IMG/VR virus record: IMGVR_UViG_3300042520_001558
Span: 42,487 to 106,486 of that record
Source of the DNA: a virus
Direction: 5' to 3' (one strand)
DNA length: 64,000 nt
This document shows, in pieces, positions 19,213 to 44,827 of the stretch (position 1 is its first letter; every line of letters begins with the position of its first letter). A program made the translations under genes and the position numbers. The notes beneath the pieces were generated by a model. It saw only the letters and a program-made list of their open reading frames with translations. It was not told the origin of the DNA and did not search any database.

Positions 19213-19896
19213 ATGATTTGCACAACATTAACAGTATTCAATATCAGAAACTTATTTGTTGAATTGTTTCAACGAGGACAATTTGTAATTGATAAATCAG
19301 GTGTCAAAACAGTTGAACTTATCAATGCAAGTTTTATTGCTGATGAAGATTCTATTTTTGGAACCCCATCTTCTGATTGGCATGAACGAGAACTTCAATG
19401 GTATTTGTCTCAATCAAGAAATGTAAATGATATTCCATCACCTATTCCAAAGATATGGGGAGAAATAGCAGATCATAGTGGTTTTATCAATAGTAATTAC
19501 GGATGGTGCATATTCTCATATGACAATGGAAATCAATTCAATGAATGTTTCAATGCATTGAATAAAAATCCTGATACTCGTCAGGCGATTATGATTTATA
19601 ATCGTCCATCAATGCATGAAGATTCAAAAGAATTTGGACGTAATGATTTTATGTGTTGTCAAAATGTGCAATATTTTATTCGAGATAATCAATTGATAGC
19701 TATCGCAAACTGGAGAAGTAGCGATGCGGTATTTGGATATAAAGGGGATTTGTTTTGGAACAGATATGTGTTGGATAAATTACATAGTCAATTGCTAATA
19801 AAATATCCAACACTTCAAAAAGGTCCAATCATTTGGAACGCGGCATCACTTCACGTTTATGAACGCCACTTCCGCTTGATTGAGAAACTTATCTAA
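19213..19896 (+). CDS. 42: dCMP hydroxymethylase (T4 gp42-like)
   Basis: This 227-residue thymidylate-synthase-family protein would convert dCMP to 5-hydroxymethyl-dCMP using methylene-tetrahydrofolate. It follows T4 gp42 closely: KSGVKTVELINASFIADE (residues 28-45), INSNYGW, DTRQAIMIYNRPSM, and NDFMCCQNVQYFIRD with the nucleophile Cys148 at the same number as in T4. An aspartate at residue 179 replaces the dUMP-selective asparagine of true thymidylate synthases, which marks cytosine specificity. HVYERHF lies near the C-terminus. It is about 20 residues shorter than T4 gp42. It converges with the leftward gene, overlapping its 3' end by 51 bases. A separate canonical thymidylate synthase is at 41956. 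Together they suggest that the phage DNA contains hydroxymethylcytosine. Confidence 0.93.
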   Translation: MICTTLTVFNIRNLFVELFQRGQFVIDKSGVKTVELINASFIADEDSIFGTPSSDWHERELQWYLSQSRNVNDIPSPIPKIWGEIADHSGFINSNYGWCIFSYDNGNQFNECFNALNKNPDTRQAIMIYNRPSMHEDSKEFGRNDFMCCQNVQYFIRDNQLIAIANWRSSDAVFGYKGDLFWNRYVLDKLHSQLLIKYPTLQKGPIIWNAASLHVYERHFRLIEKLI

Positions 19897-24624: not shown

Positions 24625-26127
24625 ATGGCCGTCATCGAAACAAAAATACCAAAACAACTGTATGTCACTCTCAGACAAGAACGACGAGTAGAACCTGATG
24701 ATGCACCATTAGGCTTTGCTTCTCCATACGAACCTGGTACAAGTGGCTTCAAGAAAAGACAAAAAACCCAATTAGAATGGGCTTATCAAGTTTCACATCC
24801 TCATACAACATTTACCATTCATGACCTTCATAGAATAAATGTCTATCAAAATCAATTGTCGCTTATGTATTCACAGGATGATACGTCTGGTGAAGTCAAG
24901 ATGTTTGAATGGGTTGACGATGAAACATTACCACGATTAGAAGCTAAAGATAATGATGACTGGCTAAAACAATACTTACCAAATACCTATTGCGGCAAGT
25001 CTCGTCAAGAAGTTACTGACGACCATCCAATGGCACCTAAGATTCTTGACAATGTTCCGCTTTCTGGTTATCAATTGACTAAAGAAGTTCGTCGTACTGG
25101 TTGGAATGGTGGTAATGTTGTATGGCGAATTCTTGACCCGCGTGGATTCCAGCTTGAAATCAGTTCAGCTAATCTTGCTCGTATCATTGATTGCTCGACT
25201 ATTACTGAAGGTGTCATTATGGAACCTTGTATCTGGGGACGGTCAGGAGCTGCAAATGTATTGCTTCCAATGTCATCAGACATTTGTAAAGCTGCTTATG
25301 TGAATACTGAGCGAGCTGAAAAAAAGAAGATTCCATTGAAAGAAGTGTCAATCGGCGATCATGTTAGGATTCAAGAATCTTCAAAGAATGAAGATATTGT
25401 GTATGAGTATCTTGGTAAATTCACGATTATCACTGGCTCAACACGTAATGAATTTTACCCATATACCACATTCAGTGGCATACATGTAGCTCGTGACAAT
25501 TATGAACGGTATGTATTACGCAGGGTTGATTTTGTTGGAGGCAAAAATCAAATAGCTTATGAGTTCTATTCAACTCCAACTGTATATGAAATAGTTCAAA
25601 AGACTTTAGTTCCTAAAGATAAAGTTGAAGTATGTCAAAGACTAAATGACCTTGCATCAAGTAGATTCTTTGGGACTGATGAAACTCATTCGCATTTATC
25701 TTATGATTCTCGTATTGTTGGATTCTGTATTGGCAAACCATCAGATTTTTCTTTATCATTAGAAAAAGTAGATGATGATGTAGATGAATATGCTAGAAAT
25801 TGGACTATGTATGAAAGTCAATTTGAAAACTCAAAAGTCAAATCTTATTTCGTTCGTAAAGACAATCAATTATATATGATTGCTAATAATAGAAATAATA
25901 TTAGATTAGTTCCATGCAAAATAGATAAAGTTTCTATAAATTTTGAAACTAAAGTAGTAAAACATTCAAGTGGTTATTATGCTCGTAATATGGAAGTTCC
26001 AGTGACTTACGATTTAGATATATTGCCACCAAATGATAAAGAATGGTTTCAATTAGTTCTAAATCTAAATGGAAACAAAATACAACAATCCTTATATCAA
26101 TTCAACGACATTTCAATAAATGACTGA
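24625..26127 (+). CDS. 500-residue protein of unknown function
   Basis: The start codon follows the kinase-like stop by one base, and the 3' end overlaps the phosphoesterase gene by 8 bases, so it is part of a tight operon. The sequence looks globular and beta-rich in its middle third (KEVRRTGWNGGNVVWRILD, VSIGDHVRIQESSK, YEYLGKFTIITGST). The C-terminal third is more AT-rich and asparagine/lysine-rich. The segment around residues 240-270 has the look of a small beta-barrel. No catalytic residues or known domain were recognised. A structural role is not implied, since the neighbours are enzymes expressed early. Confidence 0.75.
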   Translation: MAVIETKIPKQLYVTLRQERRVEPDDAPLGFASPYEPGTSGFKKRQKTQLEWAYQVSHPHTTFTIHDLHRINVYQNQLSLMYSQDDTSGEVKMFEWVDDETLPRLEAKDNDDWLKQYLPNTYCGKSRQEVTDDHPMAPKILDNVPLSGYQLTKEVRRTGWNGGNVVWRILDPRGFQLEISSANLARIIDCSTITEGVIMEPCIWGRSGAANVLLPMSSDICKAAYVNTERAEKKKIPLKEVSIGDHVRIQESSKNEDIVYEYLGKFTIITGSTRNEFYPYTTFSGIHVARDNYERYVLRRVDFVGGKNQIAYEFYSTPTVYEIVQKTLVPKDKVEVCQRLNDLASSRFFGTDETHSHLSYDSRIVGFCIGKPSDFSLSLEKVDDDVDEYARNWTMYESQFENSKVKSYFVRKDNQLYMIANNRNNIRLVPCKIDKVSINFETKVVKHSSGYYARNMEVPVTYDLDILPPNDKEWFQLVLNLNGNKIQQSLYQFNDISIND

Positions 26128-26659
26128 TACTAATCCGCTATTCATTTCAGATACTCACTGGTTTCATCAGAACATAATCAAATATTGTAATAGACCATTT
26201 GAATCCGCTGATGAAATGAATGAAACTTTACTAACAAACTGGAATGCAAAAGTCAAACCTCAAGATACTGTTTATTTCTTAGGGGATTTTGCTTTTGCTC
26301 CACATGATAAGGTAAAAGCCGTTCTTGACCGGCTTAATGGAAATATTCATTTATGTCGAGGCAATCATGACAAACCTTTGAATAGCCTTCATCATTACTT
26401 TACTTCAGTCTTTGATTTGAAAACGATTATGATAAAGGATGAAACCTGTATCAATGGAGTTCAGCCAATTGTTCTTTGTCATTATCCATTATTGACTTGG
26501 GATAGACAAAGATATAATAGTTGGATGCTTCATGGTCATGTTCATTCCCCTATCAATACTAAATCATCTGTCAAAAGATATGATGTTGGAGTAGATGCTA
26601 ATAACTATACACCTATTTCTTATTTAGAATTGAAAGAATGGTTCAATACTGATAAATAG
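26120..26659 (+). CDS. Calcineurin-like metallophosphoesterase
   Basis: This 179-residue protein has the full metal-binding signature: SDTHWFH (D11, H13), FLGDFAF (D56), RGNHD (81-84), CHYP with H121, and LHGHVHS (138-143). This is the short phage/bacterial calcineurin-type phosphoesterase family, which uses two metal ions to hydrolyse phosphodiesters or phosphomonoesters. The substrate cannot be inferred; related phage enzymes have been linked to nucleic-acid ends and cyclic nucleotides. It overlaps the upstream gene by 8 bases. A late promoter octamer overlaps its own last codons, so it ends the early operon exactly where the late operon begins. Confidence 0.88.
   Translation: MTDTNPLFISDTHWFHQNIIKYCNRPFESADEMNETLLTNWNAKVKPQDTVYFLGDFAFAPHDKVKAVLDRLNGNIHLCRGNHDKPLNSLHHYFTSVFDLKTIMIKDETCINGVQPIVLCHYPLLTWDRQRYNSWMLHGHVHSPINTKSSVKRYDVGVDANNYTPISYLELKEWFNTDK
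26651..26658 (+). promoter_or_regulatory. Late promoter octamer GATAAATA
   Basis: GATAAATAG overlaps the stop codon of the phosphoesterase gene, 56 bases before the next ATG. It would drive the four-gene operon from 26707 to 30084 as late genes. Confidence 0.6.
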
Positions 26660-26706: not shown

Positions 26707-27801
26707 ATGCTTACTTTTTCATCTTATCTTTTAGAAGATAAACTTCCTCGTGCTATTTTATGCGAAGGAGGAAATGTTCAGATTGGTGACCATGCGGCTC
26801 AACATATTAACTTAGAAGACCACGATAGAGATATCGTGTCAGATGTTATTATGAAGTCACTGGTTGAATTGAACCATTCCTTCAAAGAAGATACCGGGCT
26901 TTACATCTGGAAACCATCAGTTCTCAAAGACGGAAAGATTTTCTCAGGTTCAACTAAACACTTTTTCGATAGTCGTATTCCAACAGAAACTTTTGTCAAA
27001 CACAAAAAGTCCGTTGGCGATATTGATTTGATGGTTGATGAAAACTTGAAGAAACAAATCATCGCTTTCATCTCTGACCGCAAAGGCGAAAACTTTGGAA
27101 GTTTGGAGCTAATAGGTTCTCAACAATCCGGCGACCAAACAATCACTCTTTGGAAGTTGGAACCTATGGGTATCAATGTTCAGGTTGATTTGGAGTATGT
27201 AGAATTTCTAAAAGATGAGCCGACTGAATGGTCTGAGTTTTCACATTCGGCTTCTTTTGAAGATATGGAAATTGGTATCAAAGGAGCCTTCCATAAACTT
27301 CTAATGACGTCACTAATGGGACATACAAAAGCTGATGCCATTCTTCAAATGAAGACTAAGCAGAAAGATATCAAAGCTGGAACTCATGCTCTTTCAATCA
27401 AGGGATTACGTAAAAAGTTTGAAAAGATTGGCGAACTTGATGGAAAGAATGTTGTCAGAGAAACGGGTTCTAAAGAATGGAACCGCAACTTCTATGATAT
27501 CTTAAGAGAGATTTTCGGTAAAGAAGCAAGTGCCGATGAAGTCAAAATGTTTTGGTCTTATACTGGAATTCTAAAGCTTTTGAAAAAGAATATGGCTAAA
27601 GATGATTTGAAAAAAGTATTTGAAGAATTCATTGATAGATTATTTGGCGAAGGAGCACAAGGTTTATATCGTGGTGACCCAAATCGAGATTTAGATGAAA
27701 AGATGGTTGCGTTGAAATATGCTAAAGAGAAATTAAATCTAGATTTAGACGAACATGCATTGCATAGATTACAAAAAGAATTCTACGAAAAGTACAAGTA
27801 A
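26707..27801 (+). CDS. Nucleotidyltransferase-fold protein with capsid-targeting-like leader
   Basis: The 364-residue protein begins MLTFSSYLLE-DK. The first ten residues resemble the T4 internal-protein leader MKTYQEFIAE, which the prohead protease gp21 removes after (I/L)xE. Cleavage here would follow LLE10. The core has polymerase-beta-type nucleotidyltransferase residues: GS at 81-82, SVGDIDLMVD (D105, D107), and a third acidic position in INVQVDLEYVEF (D161 or E163). NTases of this type transfer nucleotides to RNA, proteins or small molecules. The substrate is unknown. It opens a late operon and is followed directly by GNAT and ligase genes. Packaging in the capsid is inference. Confidence 0.75.
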   Translation: MLTFSSYLLEDKLPRAILCEGGNVQIGDHAAQHINLEDHDRDIVSDVIMKSLVELNHSFKEDTGLYIWKPSVLKDGKIFSGSTKHFFDSRIPTETFVKHKKSVGDIDLMVDENLKKQIIAFISDRKGENFGSLELIGSQQSGDQTITLWKLEPMGINVQVDLEYVEFLKDEPTEWSEFSHSASFEDMEIGIKGAFHKLLMTSLMGHTKADAILQMKTKQKDIKAGTHALSIKGLRKKFEKIGELDGKNVVRETGSKEWNRNFYDILREIFGKEASADEVKMFWSYTGILKLLKKNMAKDDLKKVFEEFIDRLFGEGAQGLYRGDPNRDLDEKMVALKYAKEKLNLDLDEHALHRLQKEFYEKYK

Positions 27802-28479
27802 ATGATTACATTCAAAGAATACTTATTAGGGGAGATGACATTAGTCGACCCTGCGGTATCTGCCAAAATGTTATACGATTATTTAGATGATATAGAACCT
27901 TTGATTATTCATGGTGGTGGAGTAACTCATATTGGTGACATTGAAGAATATCAAGTATATCATACTAAGTATAACAATTATGAAGTATATGCTTTAAGAA
28001 AGGATGATGAAGTTGCTTGTGTATTCAAATGTATGTTTAGAACCTTTCCGATAATTGATAAAGTTCTTTATGTGTTTATCATGGTAACAAAACCCTCGTT
28101 TCAGGGTAAAGCTTTATCTGCAAAAATGATACACTTTTTCAATACTCGAGAAGTATGGCATGTGCTCATTGATGACTTATTATCTCCATCGAATAAGAAT
28201 AACCTAGAAAAGATTGCTAAAGATGAAAATTCTTCAGCATGCTGGTATAATGTAAAGACTGGTGAAATTGAGCCATTCAAAAATACTGAAGGAAAATACA
28301 CATTCAATTTTGCTCATCCTGAAACACATTGGCAAATTCTTTTTCAGAAAAGACATAAAGGCGATAATGAAGATATCTTTAAGACTGAAGAAGTTTATTC
28401 AAGATTTTGGAAAAGGGAACATATAGCAGAATGTCGTATGATTAATGGATATGAACATTTAGGACTAGGAACCGATTAA
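27802..28479 (+). CDS. GNAT-like acetyltransferase with capsid-targeting-like leader
   Basis: The 225-residue protein begins MITFKEYLLGE, again an aromatic-rich leader ending in a possible LGE cleavage site. Residues 90-112 (VFIMVTKPSFQGKALSAKMI) look like GNAT motif A, the acetyl-CoA pyrophosphate loop. The usual Q/RxxGxG/A is present as QGKA, which is imperfect. The remaining sequence is unrecognised. The start abuts the stop of the nucleotidyltransferase gene, so they are translationally coupled. A second GNAT-like gene lies two genes downstream. Acetylation of a host target, tRNA or virion component is possible; the target is unknown. Confidence 0.6.
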   Translation: MITFKEYLLGEMTLVDPAVSAKMLYDYLDDIEPLIIHGGGVTHIGDIEEYQVYHTKYNNYEVYALRKDDEVACVFKCMFRTFPIIDKVLYVFIMVTKPSFQGKALSAKMIHFFNTREVWHVLIDDLLSPSNKNNLEKIAKDENSSACWYNVKTGEIEPFKNTEGKYTFNFAHPETHWQILFQKRHKGDNEDIFKTEEVYSRFWKREHIAECRMINGYEHLGLGTD

Positions 28480-28481
28480 GA

Positions 28482-29426
28482 ATGATTACATTTAGACAAT
28501 TTTTAGCAGAAGAAAGCGAAAGCGAAATCGCTAAAACAAAGCGACAAGGCATTGTGCATTTTCAAGACATGAAGCCGGTTGAAGCATTACAGTTTCTTCG
28601 TAAAATCAAAGATGAGATGAAGGGTAAGTTGAAAGACATTCCCGTTACTCTCAAAGTTGATGGAGGTTCTTTACGATTTGGTAAAGATAAGAAAGGTGAA
28701 TACTTTCTGGAAACTGGTAATAGCGGTCCTATTCAGTCTAAGAAAGCTTTTTCAACTTTCAACCGTGATAAAGGTGTAACCTCTGAAGTCATCATTCAAC
28801 GTGCTATGCATTATGATGATATCTATGACCATATTGAAGATAGTAAGATATGGGAAACTTTACCAAATGATGCTAAAGTGTCATGCGAAATCCTATACAA
28901 TCCAATGGGTGAAGAAGTCGAAGATGACCACTTAAAGTTCGTATCAGTGAAGTACAATGCTCATAAACTTGGAAAGCTAATGACATTGGTTCCAATCACA
29001 GTCACTGTATCTTCTACTGGAGCAGCACATCCTGATAAAGACAAGATTATTGATGACCTGCTTAATCAGTCGGATAAAGACATCAAAATCATTTCGCCTA
29101 AACTGAAACCTCTTACTTTAGATGTTGAGGCTCACTTGAAACCACTTGAGTCCATTGGTGAAGATGCAGAGCAAATCCTGAAATCCCTGAAGCATGCTGA
29201 CAAACCATTGAAGCTAGAGTATCAAGTCATTCTGAATGCAATCAAAGCTCGTGTAGCCGATGCTATCATGCAACATCCAATCAAAGGTAGGGATGTCATA
29301 GGGGATGAAATAGAAGGGTACGTAGTAGAACTCTCCGGAAAGCTTTATAAAGTCACTACTCCAAAGTTCAAACAAGCTAAGAAAGATGAGAAAAAAAAGA
29401 CTACAGGAATCAGCTTTAGAATTTGA
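28482..29426 (+). CDS. ATP-dependent nucleic-acid ligase-like protein with capsid-targeting-like leader
   Basis: The 314-residue protein begins MITFRQFLAE-ESESE, with predicted processing after LAE10. The covalent nucleotidyltransferase motifs can be read. Motif I is LKVDGGSLRFG, with the candidate adenylated Lys58. A motif III-like FVSVKY lies near residue 165. Motif IV is EIEGYVVEL (277-284). A motif V-like stretch YKVTTPKFK (289-297) supplies lysines. It has no obvious C-terminal OB domain and ends in a lysine-rich tail. DNA or RNA ligase activity fits; which one is not clear. The downstream GNAT gene starts inside its last 41 bases. Confidence 0.7.
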   Translation: MITFRQFLAEESESEIAKTKRQGIVHFQDMKPVEALQFLRKIKDEMKGKLKDIPVTLKVDGGSLRFGKDKKGEYFLETGNSGPIQSKKAFSTFNRDKGVTSEVIIQRAMHYDDIYDHIEDSKIWETLPNDAKVSCEILYNPMGEEVEDDHLKFVSVKYNAHKLGKLMTLVPITVTVSSTGAAHPDKDKIIDDLLNQSDKDIKIISPKLKPLTLDVEAHLKPLESIGEDAEQILKSLKHADKPLKLEYQVILNAIKARVADAIMQHPIKGRDVIGDEIEGYVVELSGKLYKVTTPKFKQAKKDEKKKTTGISFRI

Positions 29427-30084
29427 AGTTACTGACTTATCTTATATTGATAAAGTACCAAATCATTCTCGTGATTTTAGGGCATTTAAGTTTCTAAATG
29501 AAGATTCAGCACAACCATTACCAGAACTAACCAAAAATGAACTTGCAAAAATTGATATGGATTCATGTAAGCTTTTTGGAACAATGAATCAAATTGATAT
29601 CTATCTAAGTGGTATATATGCAGGTCATCATACATTTGTTATTTTTGATGAAAAAACTAAAAACCCATTAGCATTCATAGTAGTGCAGACCCAACCAATA
29701 ATGTTGGCAGGCGAAGAACGAACACTAGAAGTTAGGTCTTGGACTCATCCAGCAGAACGAGGAAAAGGCTATGCTACTACCTTATATCAATTTCTTGTTA
29801 AAAAACTTGAGTTGAAGTTAGTATGCGATGATATGTTATCGGATGATGCAGTCAAAATGTATAAACAGTTCATAGCAAAACGAAAATTTGATAACATTAG
29901 TTTTTATAATGAAAAGACTAAACAGGTTCAAGACGATGAACCCTCAAATTTATGGACAATGCCAAATCAGTGGCGAATTTTTCTAGAATCATTTGATTCT
30001 ATTGGCGGTCCGAAACCATTGTTTGGCAAGCCTGGTCTTAGACATATTGGCGAATCATGTTATGATAACATTGGATTTGATTAA
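29386..30084 (+). CDS. GNAT-family acetyltransferase
   Basis: This 232-residue protein has GNAT motif A as EVRSWTHPAERGKGYATTLY (residues 115-134), with the canonical RGKG acetyl-CoA loop at 125-128 and the following helix. A preceding strand pair is PLAFIVVQTQPIML. The N-terminus MRKKRLQESALEFEV lacks the aromatic leader of its operon partners, although an LQE is present. Its start overlaps the ligase-like gene by 41 bases, through an eight-A run. The C-terminal 60 residues (DEPSNLWTMPNQWRIFLESF to IGFD) are unrecognised. It closes the late operon. The substrate is unknown. Confidence 0.75.
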   Translation: MRKKRLQESALEFEVTDLSYIDKVPNHSRDFRAFKFLNEDSAQPLPELTKNELAKIDMDSCKLFGTMNQIDIYLSGIYAGHHTFVIFDEKTKNPLAFIVVQTQPIMLAGEERTLEVRSWTHPAERGKGYATTLYQFLVKKLELKLVCDDMLSDDAVKMYKQFIAKRKFDNISFYNEKTKQVQDDEPSNLWTMPNQWRIFLESFDSIGGPKPLFGKPGLRHIGESCYDNIGFD

Positions 30085-30151: not shown

Positions 30152-30188
30152 AGTTCCATATACAGAGATGAGTATAGGAACTGCTACG

Positions 30189-30887
30189 ATGAGCACTCAA
30201 AAACCAAAAACCGTATTAGCAATAAGTGATGTCTTTTCCCGTATTCCTACGAAAAAACCATCAAAATGCACAGTGACACTGGACTCAGGACAACGAGTTC
30301 CAGTCACACCTTCATTGGTACGTATCTTCAGTCTTCATGCAATTCATAATCATGCTCTTGAATGTAGCATTTGTGGTTGTATGGCTACACATCTACAACA
30401 AGATTTTCAACGCCAAGCCGATGGAACCAATTGTGAAATTTGGCAATTGAAAGCTTGGAACAAAGAAAGTGAAAGACAAGTCTATCTAAACGTTGATCAT
30501 ATTCTTCCACGTTCATTAGGTGGTACTTTAGAACCTTCAAATATGCGGATTGCATGTTCTCGTTGTAATGTAAAACGTGGAACTTCATTAGAAGGTATTG
30601 AACTTCCAGAACATATTCAAGTTCATAGCACGTTCTTCAATCTTCAAAAAACAATTGAATACTTGATAAAGAAGTATGCTACAAAAGTGAAAAAATTCAA
30701 TGTTAAAATTGTTCATTTCAAAAACTACATCAACAAATACCTGATTGCTCGTAGCCAAAGTTATCGTCGTACAACCGATAGAACCATCTTCAGAAAAGCT
30801 GTTAGCTGTGGTCTAACTCAAATCGGCTTTACCTTTGCAATTGATGAACTTGATGCAATCGTAGATGCCAGTGCAATCGCCCTATAA
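30189..30887 (+). CDS. HNH endonuclease
   Basis: The protein is 232 residues from MSTQKPKTVLAISD. An in-frame ATG 21 bases earlier exists. The chosen start has an AGGA site at proper spacing and the TACG-ATG context shared by other early genes here. The catalytic motif reads NVDHILPRSLGG (D103, H104) with N118 in LEPSNMRIAC. Zinc cysteines are ECSICGC (C59, C62) and CSRCN (C123, C126). This is a classical ββα-metal HNH nuclease with a zinc frame. The C-terminal 100 residues (basic, KKYATKVKKFNVKI) probably bind DNA. It may be a free-standing homing endonuclease. No intron or target site was identified. Confidence 0.88.
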   Translation: MSTQKPKTVLAISDVFSRIPTKKPSKCTVTLDSGQRVPVTPSLVRIFSLHAIHNHALECSICGCMATHLQQDFQRQADGTNCEIWQLKAWNKESERQVYLNVDHILPRSLGGTLEPSNMRIACSRCNVKRGTSLEGIELPEHIQVHSTFFNLQKTIEYLIKKYATKVKKFNVKIVHFKNYINKYLIARSQSYRRTTDRTIFRKAVSCGLTQIGFTFAIDELDAIVDASAIAL

Positions 30888-41189: not shown

Positions 41190-41956
41190 TGAAGACTAAA
41201 CACTTCCGCTTTGAAAAGATGAATGCTCGAGTTAGTCGATGGATAGAAGTAACGTTGAATTCTGGAACTCCAGATAGTGACTACAATACTTCGCCATACA
41301 TAACCTTTCGAGCATTTGATTATGTGTTTGAGATAAGCAGATTGCCAAGCTGGCTTTTACAACCATATGAAGAATGGGTGAATGTCTCATATCCTGGTTG
41401 CGAACCAGGAAGAGGCTATACTCAATGTGATGAACGTTCTTATGGGTTTTCAATCTTTGACGACCATTTCAATCTTCGTTATGGTCGTATGTCGGATTCA
41501 TCTGTTCTTGAACAACGTATAGGTTTTACCTTACCATGGCTTGATGAAGAGCTTGTTCGCATTACACTGCTCAATCCTGACTATACGACAATTCAAACTA
41601 ATCTAGTTGGCTGGTCATTTCCCCAACGTGAAGAGTTTGAAAAGCAAGTGCCTAAAATGATTTACACTTTCACTGATGCGGATGGTTCTGAAAATCGAGC
41701 AGTGTGTTATATGGAAGAACGTGAATGGCGAAAAGGTAGAAGTAAATTGTGGAAGTGGTTACGACTGTTCAATAAGCCAAATGTTCAAAGATATCTTGAT
41801 GTTGAATTTGACCGAGAAGCTGGCAAGGAACAAGGCTCTTACAAAGGTGGAGTATGTTCGTTATGCACCCCAATAGAAAGTCTAACAACTCCACTTGATA
41901 CATTCAAGAAGTGGGCGGAAAAAGAAAGAATCACTAACATACAACGAGTTCAATAA
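41189..41956 (+). CDS. Phage protein of unknown function (255 residues)
   Basis: It starts MKTKHFRFEKMNARVSRWIE at the ATG overlapping the previous stop; a GTG three codons upstream is less likely. The protein is beta-rich and aromatic. The C-terminal part (YKGGVCSLCTPIESLTTPLD, then FKKWAEKERI) resembles a motif seen at the end of several uncharacterised phage proteins. Its stop overlaps the thymidylate synthase start, so it belongs to the nucleotide-metabolism transcript. No function is assigned. Confidence 0.7.
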   Translation: MKTKHFRFEKMNARVSRWIEVTLNSGTPDSDYNTSPYITFRAFDYVFEISRLPSWLLQPYEEWVNVSYPGCEPGRGYTQCDERSYGFSIFDDHFNLRYGRMSDSSVLEQRIGFTLPWLDEELVRITLLNPDYTTIQTNLVGWSFPQREEFEKQVPKMIYTFTDADGSENRAVCYMEEREWRKGRSKLWKWLRLFNKPNVQRYLDVEFDREAGKEQGSYKGGVCSLCTPIESLTTPLDTFKKWAEKERITNIQRVQ

Positions 41957-42840
41957 TGACATACATACTAAAAGAATATGACGACGCACTTGCTTCCATT
42001 TACAATACTGGTTGGGAAATGCCAGTTGAAAGAACAGGTAAAGGATGTCGTGTCAAGTTAGGTATTACTACACGTTATGACATTAGCAAACAGTTTCCAG
42101 TATTGTCATATCGAAAGATGGCTTGGAAATCATTTGTCAAAGAAGTCCTGTGGTACATTTCAGGTAGCGATAACATTCACGACCTTGAAAAGATGGGTTG
42201 CAATGTTTGGACTCCTTGGATAAATGATGAATTTACTCAAAGAGCTGGATTGAAACAAGGTTCAATAGGTTTTGGTTATGGACCTAACCTGATTCATTAT
42301 GGTGCAGAGTTTAGCAGTATTCATCCACTTCGTGGCGGATTCAATCAATTGGACTACGTCATCAATACCCTCAAAACTAGCCCAGGCTCAAGACAGGCAA
42401 TGTTTGTGATGTGGCGACCTGACAGGTTCAATCAAGTCTTATTACCGGCTTGTCATTTTGCTTATCACTTTATGGTCTCTCCAAATGAAGCCGGCGAAAT
42501 GAAAGTTTTGAACTGCGAAATCTTTCAACGCTCTGCAGATTATCCTATTGGTGTTCCTGCCAACATCTTTATGGGTGCAGTCTTTACCTATTTGATTGCT
42601 CAACAATTGGATATGGTTCCAGGCGAGTTGATTCATTCTGCTTCTCATGCTCATATCTACCATAATGCTTTGAAAGAAACAGAAGAATATCTTTTTGATA
42701 GAGTTGAAAACTTGATTGCATTTGAGTCACCAGTCATGGTCATAAATAAACGTGATAGCATCTATGATTATACTATAGATGACTTCACTTTAGAAGGATA
42801 TGAATCCTATGACAAAATCAACTTCCCTATTGCAGTCTAA
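41956..42840 (+). CDS. thyA: Thymidylate synthase (ThyA type)
   Basis: This 294-residue protein makes dTMP from dUMP and methylene-tetrahydrofolate. The catalytic cysteine is in LLPACHFAYHF (C166). Other signatures are SRQAMFVMWRPD, CEIFQRSADYPIGVPANIF with the dUMP-binding Asn203 retained, HAHIYHNAL, and a C-terminal DKINFPIAV like the conserved PVAI/PIAV end. This asparagine contrasts with the aspartate in the gp42-like protein at 19213. The reading frame is uninterrupted, with no td-type intron. The segment HF after CHFAY departs from the usual QF/QFY. Confidence 0.95.
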   Translation: MTYILKEYDDALASIYNTGWEMPVERTGKGCRVKLGITTRYDISKQFPVLSYRKMAWKSFVKEVLWYISGSDNIHDLEKMGCNVWTPWINDEFTQRAGLKQGSIGFGYGPNLIHYGAEFSSIHPLRGGFNQLDYVINTLKTSPGSRQAMFVMWRPDRFNQVLLPACHFAYHFMVSPNEAGEMKVLNCEIFQRSADYPIGVPANIFMGAVFTYLIAQQLDMVPGELIHSASHAHIYHNALKETEEYLFDRVENLIAFESPVMVINKRDSIYDYTIDDFTLEGYESYDKINFPIAV

Positions 42841-43306: not shown

Positions 43307-43314
43307 CATAAATA
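43307..43314 (+). promoter_or_regulatory. Late promoter octamer CATAAATA
   Basis: CATAAATAG lies 57 bases before the ATG at 43364 and 25 bases after the terminator, as expected for the start of a late operon. Confidence 0.65.
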
Positions 43315-43363: not shown

Positions 43364-44827
43364 ATGAGTATATCGTTCAAATCATTCTTACTAGAAACTC
43401 AATTCGATACATCCGAGCTTATTGAAAAGACTGCTCGTTCAGGAGAATATGATTCTAAGTGGCGAACCTATATCCTAAAAAAGCTTATCAATAAACATGA
43501 ACCTCTTGAATTGAAAGATGGGACAAAGATTGTTATTGATACTGAAAATGCATTAGTCAAACATTTATTAGCTCTTATTCCAGATAAAAATGAAAAGCTT
43601 ATTGGAGATAAAGCCAATGAGCTAAAAGACTTTCTCAAGAAAGAAAAACCATTCGTTGATAAAAGTGGAACTGCATATAAGTTATCAGATATCAAAAAGT
43701 CTGAAGCATTTGGTGGTGGCACTAAAGGTTCAGGTGGTGGAGCAGCTGATACTGAAAAGAATGAAAGCTTACAATGCGTTGCTCTTGCATTACGTCAGAA
43801 TAAAAACAAAAAAATTGACATTGATGATTTCAATGAAGATGATATCAAAGAATCTGATAAGTATTTCGATATTTCATTTACTTATAGTAATCCTCAAGAA
43901 TTAGCAGATGAATTAGTTTCAAATGAAACGTGGTCTAAAGTGTATGTCAATACTGCAAATAAACTATTTTCTTATTTGAAACTAGATGAAACTCTAAACT
44001 TTTATAGAGGTAATTCATGGGTTAAATCTTTATATGATTTAGCTAAGAAACTTGATAAGAATGACAATTCTACTTTTTCTAACTTTAACAAATGGAATCC
44101 TGCAGATATATGGTTAGTAAAAGATTCTATCAAAGTTCCCCATGATATGACATCTTTATTAGAACTCAATCAATGGCTTATTGATAAGTTCAAAGACCGC
44201 ACAGTAATCGGAGTATCACTGAAAAAAACCGAAGATGCTTCCGTCAAAGAAATCAATCTTGATAATGCAATTGAAGATATTGCTAAGATTGATGGTATTA
44301 AGTTTATGATTGAATCTCGAAATGATATCTTTAGAGCTAAAGATGCTTATATAGTTTTTGATGAAGATAAACTTCAATTAAGAACTGACCAAAAAGATAA
44401 ACCTGTCAATATTCAAGGTGAAATAAAAGGAACTAAAGCGGCTCACGGAAAAATCGGATTTGGAAACATTCAAAAGATTCTAAAAAATCTAAATCTATCT
44501 CAATTAGAATCTGCTGCAGAACTAAAAAGTTTGATAGATAATTCAACTCTTGATAAAAAGAAACGTTATATCAAATTGATTCCAAAGATGACACAATATG
44601 TCAAGAGTATTTCAAATCATTATTCAATCGATTATATTGAAGAACAATTTTTAGCAAGTAAAAATACTGAAAGCGATGGTTGGGTTATTTCAAAACTTCA
44701 AGCAGTTCAGCTAATAAGTATATTGAAAAAAGAATCAGAACAAACTCAAATCGATTTTGTTCTAAATGCTATTACTATTGCAGCAAGCAAAAGTGATTTA
44801 TCTTCCGTTTATGCTAAAGTAAGTTAG
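43364..44827 (+). CDS. Late protein with capsid-targeting-like leader and nuclease-like motif
   Basis: The 487-residue protein begins MSISFKSFLLE-TQ, an aromatic-rich leader with predicted processing after LLE11. A glycine-rich linker (GGGTKGSGGGAAD, residues 117-129) divides it. Then comes a domain with KWNPADIWLVKDS (D248) followed, about 35 residues later, by TVIGVSLKKTED (SLKK at 285-288). An acidic residue on a strand followed by a strand ending in xLKK is how divergent PD-(D/E)XK nucleases look, with Ser in place of Glu. It could be packaged in the capsid, as inferred for the other leader-bearing genes. The nuclease idea is tentative. Confidence 0.65.
   Translation: MSISFKSFLLETQFDTSELIEKTARSGEYDSKWRTYILKKLINKHEPLELKDGTKIVIDTENALVKHLLALIPDKNEKLIGDKANELKDFLKKEKPFVDKSGTAYKLSDIKKSEAFGGGTKGSGGGAADTEKNESLQCVALALRQNKNKKIDIDDFNEDDIKESDKYFDISFTYSNPQELADELVSNETWSKVYVNTANKLFSYLKLDETLNFYRGNSWVKSLYDLAKKLDKNDNSTFSNFNKWNPADIWLVKDSIKVPHDMTSLLELNQWLIDKFKDRTVIGVSLKKTEDASVKEINLDNAIEDIAKIDGIKFMIESRNDIFRAKDAYIVFDEDKLQLRTDQKDKPVNIQGEIKGTKAAHGKIGFGNIQKILKNLNLSQLESAAELKSLIDNSTLDKKKRYIKLIPKMTQYVKSISNHYSIDYIEEQFLASKNTESDGWVISKLQAVQLISILKKESEQTQIDFVLNAITIAASKSDLSSVYAKVS

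Follow-up and report, generated by a model that had tools for sequence, protein, structure and literature searches.

Candidate capsid-targeting leaders of the T4 internal-protein type on nucleotidyltransferase, GNAT-like and RNA-ligase-like proteins of T4-related phages

The internal proteins Ip1–3 of phage T4 are mutually unrelated and have only a capsid leader in common, and the ip genes of T-even phages were found via that signal (PMC12373910). Targeting by the T4 leader depends mainly on residues 4 and 7, processing depends on residues 8 and 10, and gp21 cleaves after L/I-x-E (PMC9026906). The N-terminus shared by the T4 internal proteins (IPs) IPII and IPIII reads MKTYQEFIAE in NC_000866, the same start that an initial annotation of the DNA described here had given for T4 internal proteins. 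Here we analyse a stretch of 64,000 nucleotides (the window; positions 42487–106486 of the 106,486-base virus record IMGVR_UViG_3300042520_001558) in which three consecutive open reading frames (ORFs), encoding a nucleotidyltransferase (NTase), a GNAT-like protein and an RNA-ligase-like protein, begin with leaders of this kind. Judging from sequence comparison, we consider it quite likely that these leaders act as capsid-targeting sequences like those of the T4 internal proteins, through which the tagged enzymes would be packaged and processed.

Leader-bearing genes in the window and its nearest relative

A loose pattern for the N-terminal tag was matched, among the long ATG ORFs of the window, only by the three ORFs of the operon, whose coordinates and leaders agree with those first reported, and a slightly relaxed scan added a fourth gene at 43364–44827. 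The features of the two loci are as follows.

26651–26658, plus strand: late-promoter-like octamer GATAAATA, 56 nucleotides 5′ of the start codon of the first tagged gene.
26707–27801, plus strand: NTase gene, 364 amino acids, leader MLTFSSYLLE; putative Pol-beta superfamily member, phrog_19290 match (E 1.4e-29).
26707–26766, plus strand: NTase leader, residues 1–20, MLTFSSYLLEDKLPRAILCE, which stops before GGN; candidate cuts after LLE (residue 10) and LCE (residue 20).
27802–28479, plus strand: GNAT-like protein (ORF2), 225 amino acids, leader MITFKEYLLGE (27802–27834); identified by its tag and its counterpart in the nearest relative.
28482–29426, plus strand: putative RNA-ligase-like protein, 314 amino acids, leader MITFRQFLAE (28482–28511); identified by motifs, structural model and Foldseek.
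29386–30084, plus strand: GNAT, 232 amino acids, last gene of the operon, without a canonical leader (Pfam Acetyltransf_1, E 6.5e-6).
43307–43314, plus strand: late-promoter-like octamer CATAAATA, ahead of the gene for the fourth tagged protein.
43364–44827, plus strand: fourth tagged protein, 487 amino acids, leader MSISFKSFLLE (43364–43396); phrog_1462 match (E 1.9e-50).

The range 26707–30084, originally put forward as a run of leader-bearing enzymes, contains the three tagged ORFs and also covers the untagged, clear GNAT, whose gene overlaps the ligase gene by 41 nucleotides. The NTase and ligase leaders have Phe4, Tyr or Phe at position 7, Leu8 and Glu10, and the ORF2 leader has Phe4, Tyr7, Leu8 and Glu11, so that all three operon leaders carry the aromatic residues at positions 4 and 7 that are typical of T4. 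The fourth leader shows the T4-like residue pattern offset by one residue. The leaders end in the (L/I)xE motif of T4-type cut sites, namely LLE or LCE in the NTase, LGE in ORF2, LAE in the ligase and LLE in the fourth protein.

The leader is found here on NTase, GNAT-like, ligase-like and phrog_1462 proteins, and in the cyanophage S-CREM2 likewise on an S-adenosylmethionine (SAM) hydrolase, a kinase and an HxGH enzyme. When the 106-kb record was searched together with its nearest relative, the 164-kb contig IMGVR_UViG_3300035181_002522 (G001), the strict tag was present on eight ORFs of at least 100 amino acids, compared with 0.12 expected from shuffled N-termini, a result that bears out the suggestion of a transferable tag on unrelated proteins. 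In G001 the three tagged genes recur in unchanged order (MISFKQFLLLE followed by GGN, MTSFKEYLQE and MTTFKEYLVE) and, elsewhere in the contig, four more tagged proteins that are paralogous to each other. A nucleotide search of the operon against phages gave no match.

Two leader types were distinguished, MxxFxxFLxE and M(K/R)(I/L)xELxxE. In contigs with at least two tagged genes, 63 of the 69 leader pairs were of the same type, compared with 43.9 after shuffling (P = 5e-5). The finding that leader type tracks the genome is compatible with a genome-specific partner, for instance the prohead core, recognising the leader; shared genome ancestry could also contribute to the likeness of leaders within a genome. 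At 143262–155830 of G001 (within L018, which corresponds to G001:140001–160000), at least five paralogous proteins have a C-terminal motif like CQTELMKNGLKEYAKL; four of these carry an SFK(Q/E)(F/Y)L.E leader and one carries MKLEDLLEA, a mixture suggesting that leader types have been swapped within one paralogous family.

A ParB-like protein of Xanthomonas phage X1 (L006:12455–12871) has the leader MIDFDTWLYED, and its homologs occur in 434 phage records; further matches fall within DarB-like antirestriction proteins from Burkholderia phages. One of the homologs, the ParB-like ORF101 of LIMEstone1, is annotated as a confirmed structural protein. It was weighed as evidence for the leader and dropped because its N-terminus has no clear leader; what it speaks for is solely that the ParB-like family is located in virions.

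The identities first proposed for the NTase and the ligase were sustained by motifs and predicted folds. The window NTase has the invariant residues G81 and S82 (GS), D105 and D107 (DxD) and D161, and Foldseek matched it to TUT1, Pol beta, Pol mu and AsfvPolX (probability 0.9–0.97, E ~0.02, low template modelling (TM) scores), which points to the Pol-beta NTase superfamily. It had no Pfam match up to E 0.1, and thus none to a curated RlaP family. In the ligase-like protein, K58, D60 and R65 (motif I KxDG: K58, D60), E136, E278, G279 and K290 are invariant, so that residues of motif IV (E-G) and motif V (K) are covered as well. Its AlphaFold2 model has a predicted local distance difference test (pLDDT) score of 93 and matched a Naegleria RNA ligase (E 9.5e-5, probability 1.00) and also T4 Rnl2 in Foldseek, indicating a probable member of the RNA ligase (covalent nucleotidyltransferase) superfamily; no Pfam family was matched. 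ORF2, for which Pfam likewise gave no GNAT match, retains its GNAT assignment through the positional counterpart in G001 (MTSFKEYLQE), a clear GNAT (Pfam Acetyltransf_1, E 1.7e-6). A sequence search of solved structures with the NTase and ligase profiles returned nothing useful, and neither PADLOC nor NCBIfam assigned the tagged proteins to a family. Among homologs of the phrog_1462 protein, S-SCSM1 ORF90 is annotated as a virion protein and the homolog in L036 has the leader MLSFKTYLMES. By eye, the phrog_1462 proteins (43364–44827 and homologs) resemble PD-(D/E)XK nucleases (NPADIW...GVSLKK).

Protease consensus, prohead protease and predicted late promoters

Homologs were drawn from 80 viral contigs encoding the NTase and from isolate phages, which together provided 55 distinct N-termini. 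Isolates that encode the NTase include Campylobacter phage CP220, and in Campylobacter phage vB_CcoM-IBB_35 the EGGN NTase AEF56792.1 starts with the leader MKLSELMFILE. The leader sequences of the NTase homologs differ and the (L/I/V)xE-GGN junction is constant: in all 50 distinct leader-bearing homologs a Glu immediately precedes the conserved GGN, the residue two before that Glu (P3) is Leu in 30, Ile in 17 and Val in 3, and the residue between varies freely. The other 5 of the 55 start M-GGN and are leaderless (Vibrio phage Va1, Xanthomonas phage X1, Stenotrophomonas phage Mendera and contigs L093/L095 and L096). For the window NTase, AlphaFold2 gave a model (pLDDT 93, predicted TM score 0.88) that is confident outside the leader: order sets in near residue 21, at the start of GGN, and leader residues 1–13 score below 50. 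The mature window NTase likely begins at GGN, after ILCE at residue 20. The initial annotation had proposed a cut after (I/L)xE, which the constant junction supports, with the likely NTase site lying at ILCE and not at the first LLE.

A ligase-like homolog is also encoded in 70 of the 80 NTase contigs, in 53 of them in a single reading frame with the NTase; a single-sequence scan of the viral contigs with the ligase gave no match, and these homologs were recovered next to the NTase matches. Each of the 34 distinct fused linkers has (L/I/V)xE just ahead of the ligase domain, followed by Ala in 26. The background is 0.18 per 24-residue stretch, giving a P of 6e-26 that is overstated as the homologs are non-independent. 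A general richness of fused-protein linkers in (L/I/V)xE was considered and rejected, since the linker between the ligase and HxGH domains had none in 22. A ligase encoded by a separate gene usually carries a leader of its own that ends in such a site, and thus the two arrangements, a separate tagged ligase and a linker with a protease site, look interchangeable. Of the 80 contigs, 59 encode the HxGH nucleotidylyltransferase, as does G001 (leader MDYLFE); it was not found in the window's genome as far as that has been sequenced.

The T4-type (S77) prohead protease PF03420 was detected in G001 (E 4.5e-21), which also has gp23, in each of the five isolate genomes examined and in 5 of 14 IMG/VR contigs (most of which are probably fragments). 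The overall count of NATAAATA octamers was not enriched; they were strongly enriched 30–62 nucleotides 5′ of genes (P ~1e-5 to 1e-10 for most versions), and it is this position, not the count, that is informative. Octamers are located 5′ of the window operon, the 43364 gene, the G001 operon and the G001 gp23, gp22 and sheath-like genes. The late octamer noted earlier ahead of the operon is thus confirmed as GATAAATA and belongs to a class enriched by position, and by promoter position the tagged window genes are predicted to be of the late class.

Leader signature in cyanophage virion proteomes

The genome of S-CREM2 (OR473000) was scanned for Phe, Tyr or Leu at residue 4, Phe, Tyr or Trp at residue 7, a hydrophobic residue at 8 and Glu at 10. 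Five ORFs matched at their annotated starts.

S-CREM2 ORF6: SAM hydrolase, MKDFDSFLEE.
S-CREM2 ORF13: MKDLHSFLTE.
S-CREM2 ORF14: kinase, VKRFDAFLTE.
S-CREM2 ORF136: MQTFSMFFSE.
S-CREM2 ORF154: cytidylyltransferase, MKNFSSFLTE.

All five are among the 52 virion proteins identified by mass spectrometry (P = 7.6e-4 at a base rate of 52/219; P = 7.5e-5 among proteins without structural annotation). A sixth match begins inside an annotated gene. An earlier, stricter pattern gave two matches in S-CREM2, both virion proteins. In S-SCSM1 the signature was matched by ORF91 (NMNAT-like) and ORF30, and the tagged ORF91 is a virion protein. The term 'capsid targeting sequence' is absent from both cyanophage papers (PMC9602691, PMC10665884). 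The leader would offer a reason for the presence of the SAM hydrolase, kinase and cytidylyltransferase in cyanophage virions, and the signature may serve as a sequence rule that picks virion cargo from genomes and is testable against existing proteomes.

S-CREM2 ORF12 (L129:7704–10313, minus strand), a Cas9-like nuclease seen in the virion, has a leader-like stretch, LRFASFMAEAA, from residue 17 (CTG codon), so that its start may be mis-annotated or its targeting signal internal. ORF156 (L128:4013–4726), a virion protein of unknown function beside the tagged cytidylyltransferase, resembles a Pol-beta NTase by eye (GGNANYNYTPYSDIDLHLVV).

Proposed packaging route, alternatives and known systems

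We propose that several unrelated enzymes would be made late, each with ~10–20 extra N-terminal residues, and that the leader would bind the prohead core. A gp21-type prohead protease would then cleave after (L/I)xE and release the mature enzyme in the head, where it would stay, presumably to be injected with the DNA. T4 internal proteins follow this route. The core cargo would be the Pol-beta NTase and the RNA-ligase-like enzyme; many relatives would add the HxGH nucleotidylyltransferase, and the window phage would add the GNAT-like protein and the phrog_1462 protein. From the onset of infection, the NTase and ligase might mend RNA ends, for instance on transfer RNAs (tRNAs) that host defence nucleases have cleaved. 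The central claims of the initial annotation (tag, late expression, cut and virion cargo) are supported overall, and for these particular window proteins we infer packaging, cutting and injection by analogy.

Several points weigh against packaging. The five leaderless NTase homologs indicate that it is not obligatory, the homolog counts are of non-independent events, and neither gp21 nor gp23 was detected in the window's own 106-kb record, which is a fragment. The final S-CREM2 pattern, with its positions taken from T4, was set when the virion N-termini were already known and was not blind, and S-SCSM1 ORF30 has the signature and is absent from the S-SCSM1 virion list. These lists are from cyanophages and include neither the window phage nor any EGGN NTase. 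The cyanophage authors also state that the enzymes could be carry-over in CsCl preparations, and both papers leave true packaging of these enzymes open (PMC9602691, PMC10665884).

Short motifs are easily over-read, and the four tagged G001 proteins are mutual paralogs, both of which could favour an ordinary conserved helix or translation feature that is never removed, with (L/I)xE coincidental. We consider this highly improbable, because the tagged proteins are otherwise unrelated, the leader stops exactly at the protease consensus and the NTase leader is disordered in the AlphaFold2 model. The consensus also recurs within fused proteins, at places where a start codon plays no part, and is missing from the neighbouring ligase–HxGH linker, and the signature coincides with virion presence in S-CREM2. 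It is unlikely, to a lesser degree, that the leader brings proteins into the prohead core for head assembly or DNA packaging, or that they are merely trapped there, with no effector delivery. T4 scaffold and core proteins are indeed also gp21 substrates (PMC9026906); however, the cargo enzymes are catalytically complete, have conserved active sites and do not resemble scaffold proteins, their families come and go among relatives, and the T4 IPs, whose leaders are of this kind too, are injected inhibitors (PMC12373910).

If the tagged enzymes are packaged, their function is a separate question. An RNA end-repair kit is proposed because the pairing of NTase and RNA ligase matches the RlaP proposal in jumbo phages, and RNA end repair seems to suit the cargo better than the general takeover or counter-defence module first envisaged; we hold this role tentatively, as a plausible one. 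Packaged cargo acting on proteins or small molecules (NAD or nucleotide signals), with no RNA repair, is about as likely. In polyvalent proteins, GNATs, Pol-beta NTases and ParB domains serve as effectors directed at proteins or DNA (PMC5512222, PMC9024508), the HxGH enzyme is NMNAT-like, and the NTase has no Pfam family and low TM scores to solved enzymes. Conversely, the NTase–ligase pair is tight (70 of 80 contigs, 53 fused) and parallels RlaP with RNA ligases, and the ligase model is nearest to RNA ligases. With still more reserve, we suggest that many T4-related lineages might carry a virion RNA-repair kit (Pol-beta NTase, RNA ligase and often the HxGH enzyme) that counters tRNA cleavage before phage gene expression, either as separately addressed proteins or as a protease-cut polyprotein. 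If RNA repair is the true function, tRNAs would be repaired as soon as infection begins.

Immediately 5′ of the operon, the window encodes a metallophosphoesterase (26120–26659), homologs of which adjoin the ligase gene in L054/L055 and the NTase gene in L093/L095; it may be a functional partner of the operon in RNA end clean-up. An HNH endonuclease gene (30168–30887) follows the operon, and at the equivalent place in G001 (28844–29482, minus strand) lies an ORF with a start similar to that of this endonuclease. Two separate window genes, at 19213–19896 and 41956–42840, both match the thymidylate synthase family phrog_160.

The targeting principle is already known from T4, and enzymes are already known from cyanophage virions. 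The leader on a conserved enzyme set, the polyprotein alternative and the leader common to cyanophage virion enzymes appear to be new, and no prior description of these points was found in open-licence full texts. The set had been presented initially as a novelty; the NTase–ligase pair proved to be widespread and often fused, and virion enzymes had already been seen in cyanophages, although the leader was not recognised there. Accounts of the T4 leader principle deal mainly with small restriction inhibitors from T-even phages; here the principle would extend to enzyme families of dozens of environmental T4-related phages. The fused proteins further suggest that the head-maturation protease could double as a polyprotein processor for injected effectors.

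Among known systems, RlaP and the RNA ligases of jumbo phages resemble the operon in pairing a Pol-beta NTase with an ATP-dependent RNA ligase (PMC7824862). They differ in that the window proteins have no detectable Pfam family membership, and in that RlaP is proposed there, in the text consulted, as cell-expressed and unconnected to capsid leaders (PMC7824862). The NMNAT-like enzyme or cytidylyltransferase, SAM hydrolase and kinase of cyanophages are enzymes of purified virions with the same kind of leader; however, they form another cargo set, and the authors describe no leader or packaging mechanism (PMC9602691, PMC10665884). Polyvalent proteins, including injected proteins of the P1 DdrB/DarB type, overlap in their GNAT, Pol-beta NTase and ParB effector classes (PMC5512222, PMC9024508), and the fused relatives similarly hold several effector domains in one putatively virion-associated polypeptide. 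In the window, by contrast, the domains are separate tagged proteins, the multi-domain form being confined to the 53 fused relatives, and these have T4-type prohead-protease sites at the NTase–ligase border and no P1-type head signal. The closest likeness is to T4 IPI–III, which have a leader of about ten residues with aromatic residues at 4 and 7, a hydrophobic residue at 8 and Glu at 10 (PMC9026906, PMC12373910), an L/I-x-E cut site, unrelated proteins joined by the leader alone and clustered accessory genes. The T4 cargo consists of small, non-enzymatic inhibitors of GmrSD restriction enzymes, whereas the candidate cargo here is a conserved enzyme set, several members of which are fused in the window's relatives into a polyprotein with inter-domain protease sites.

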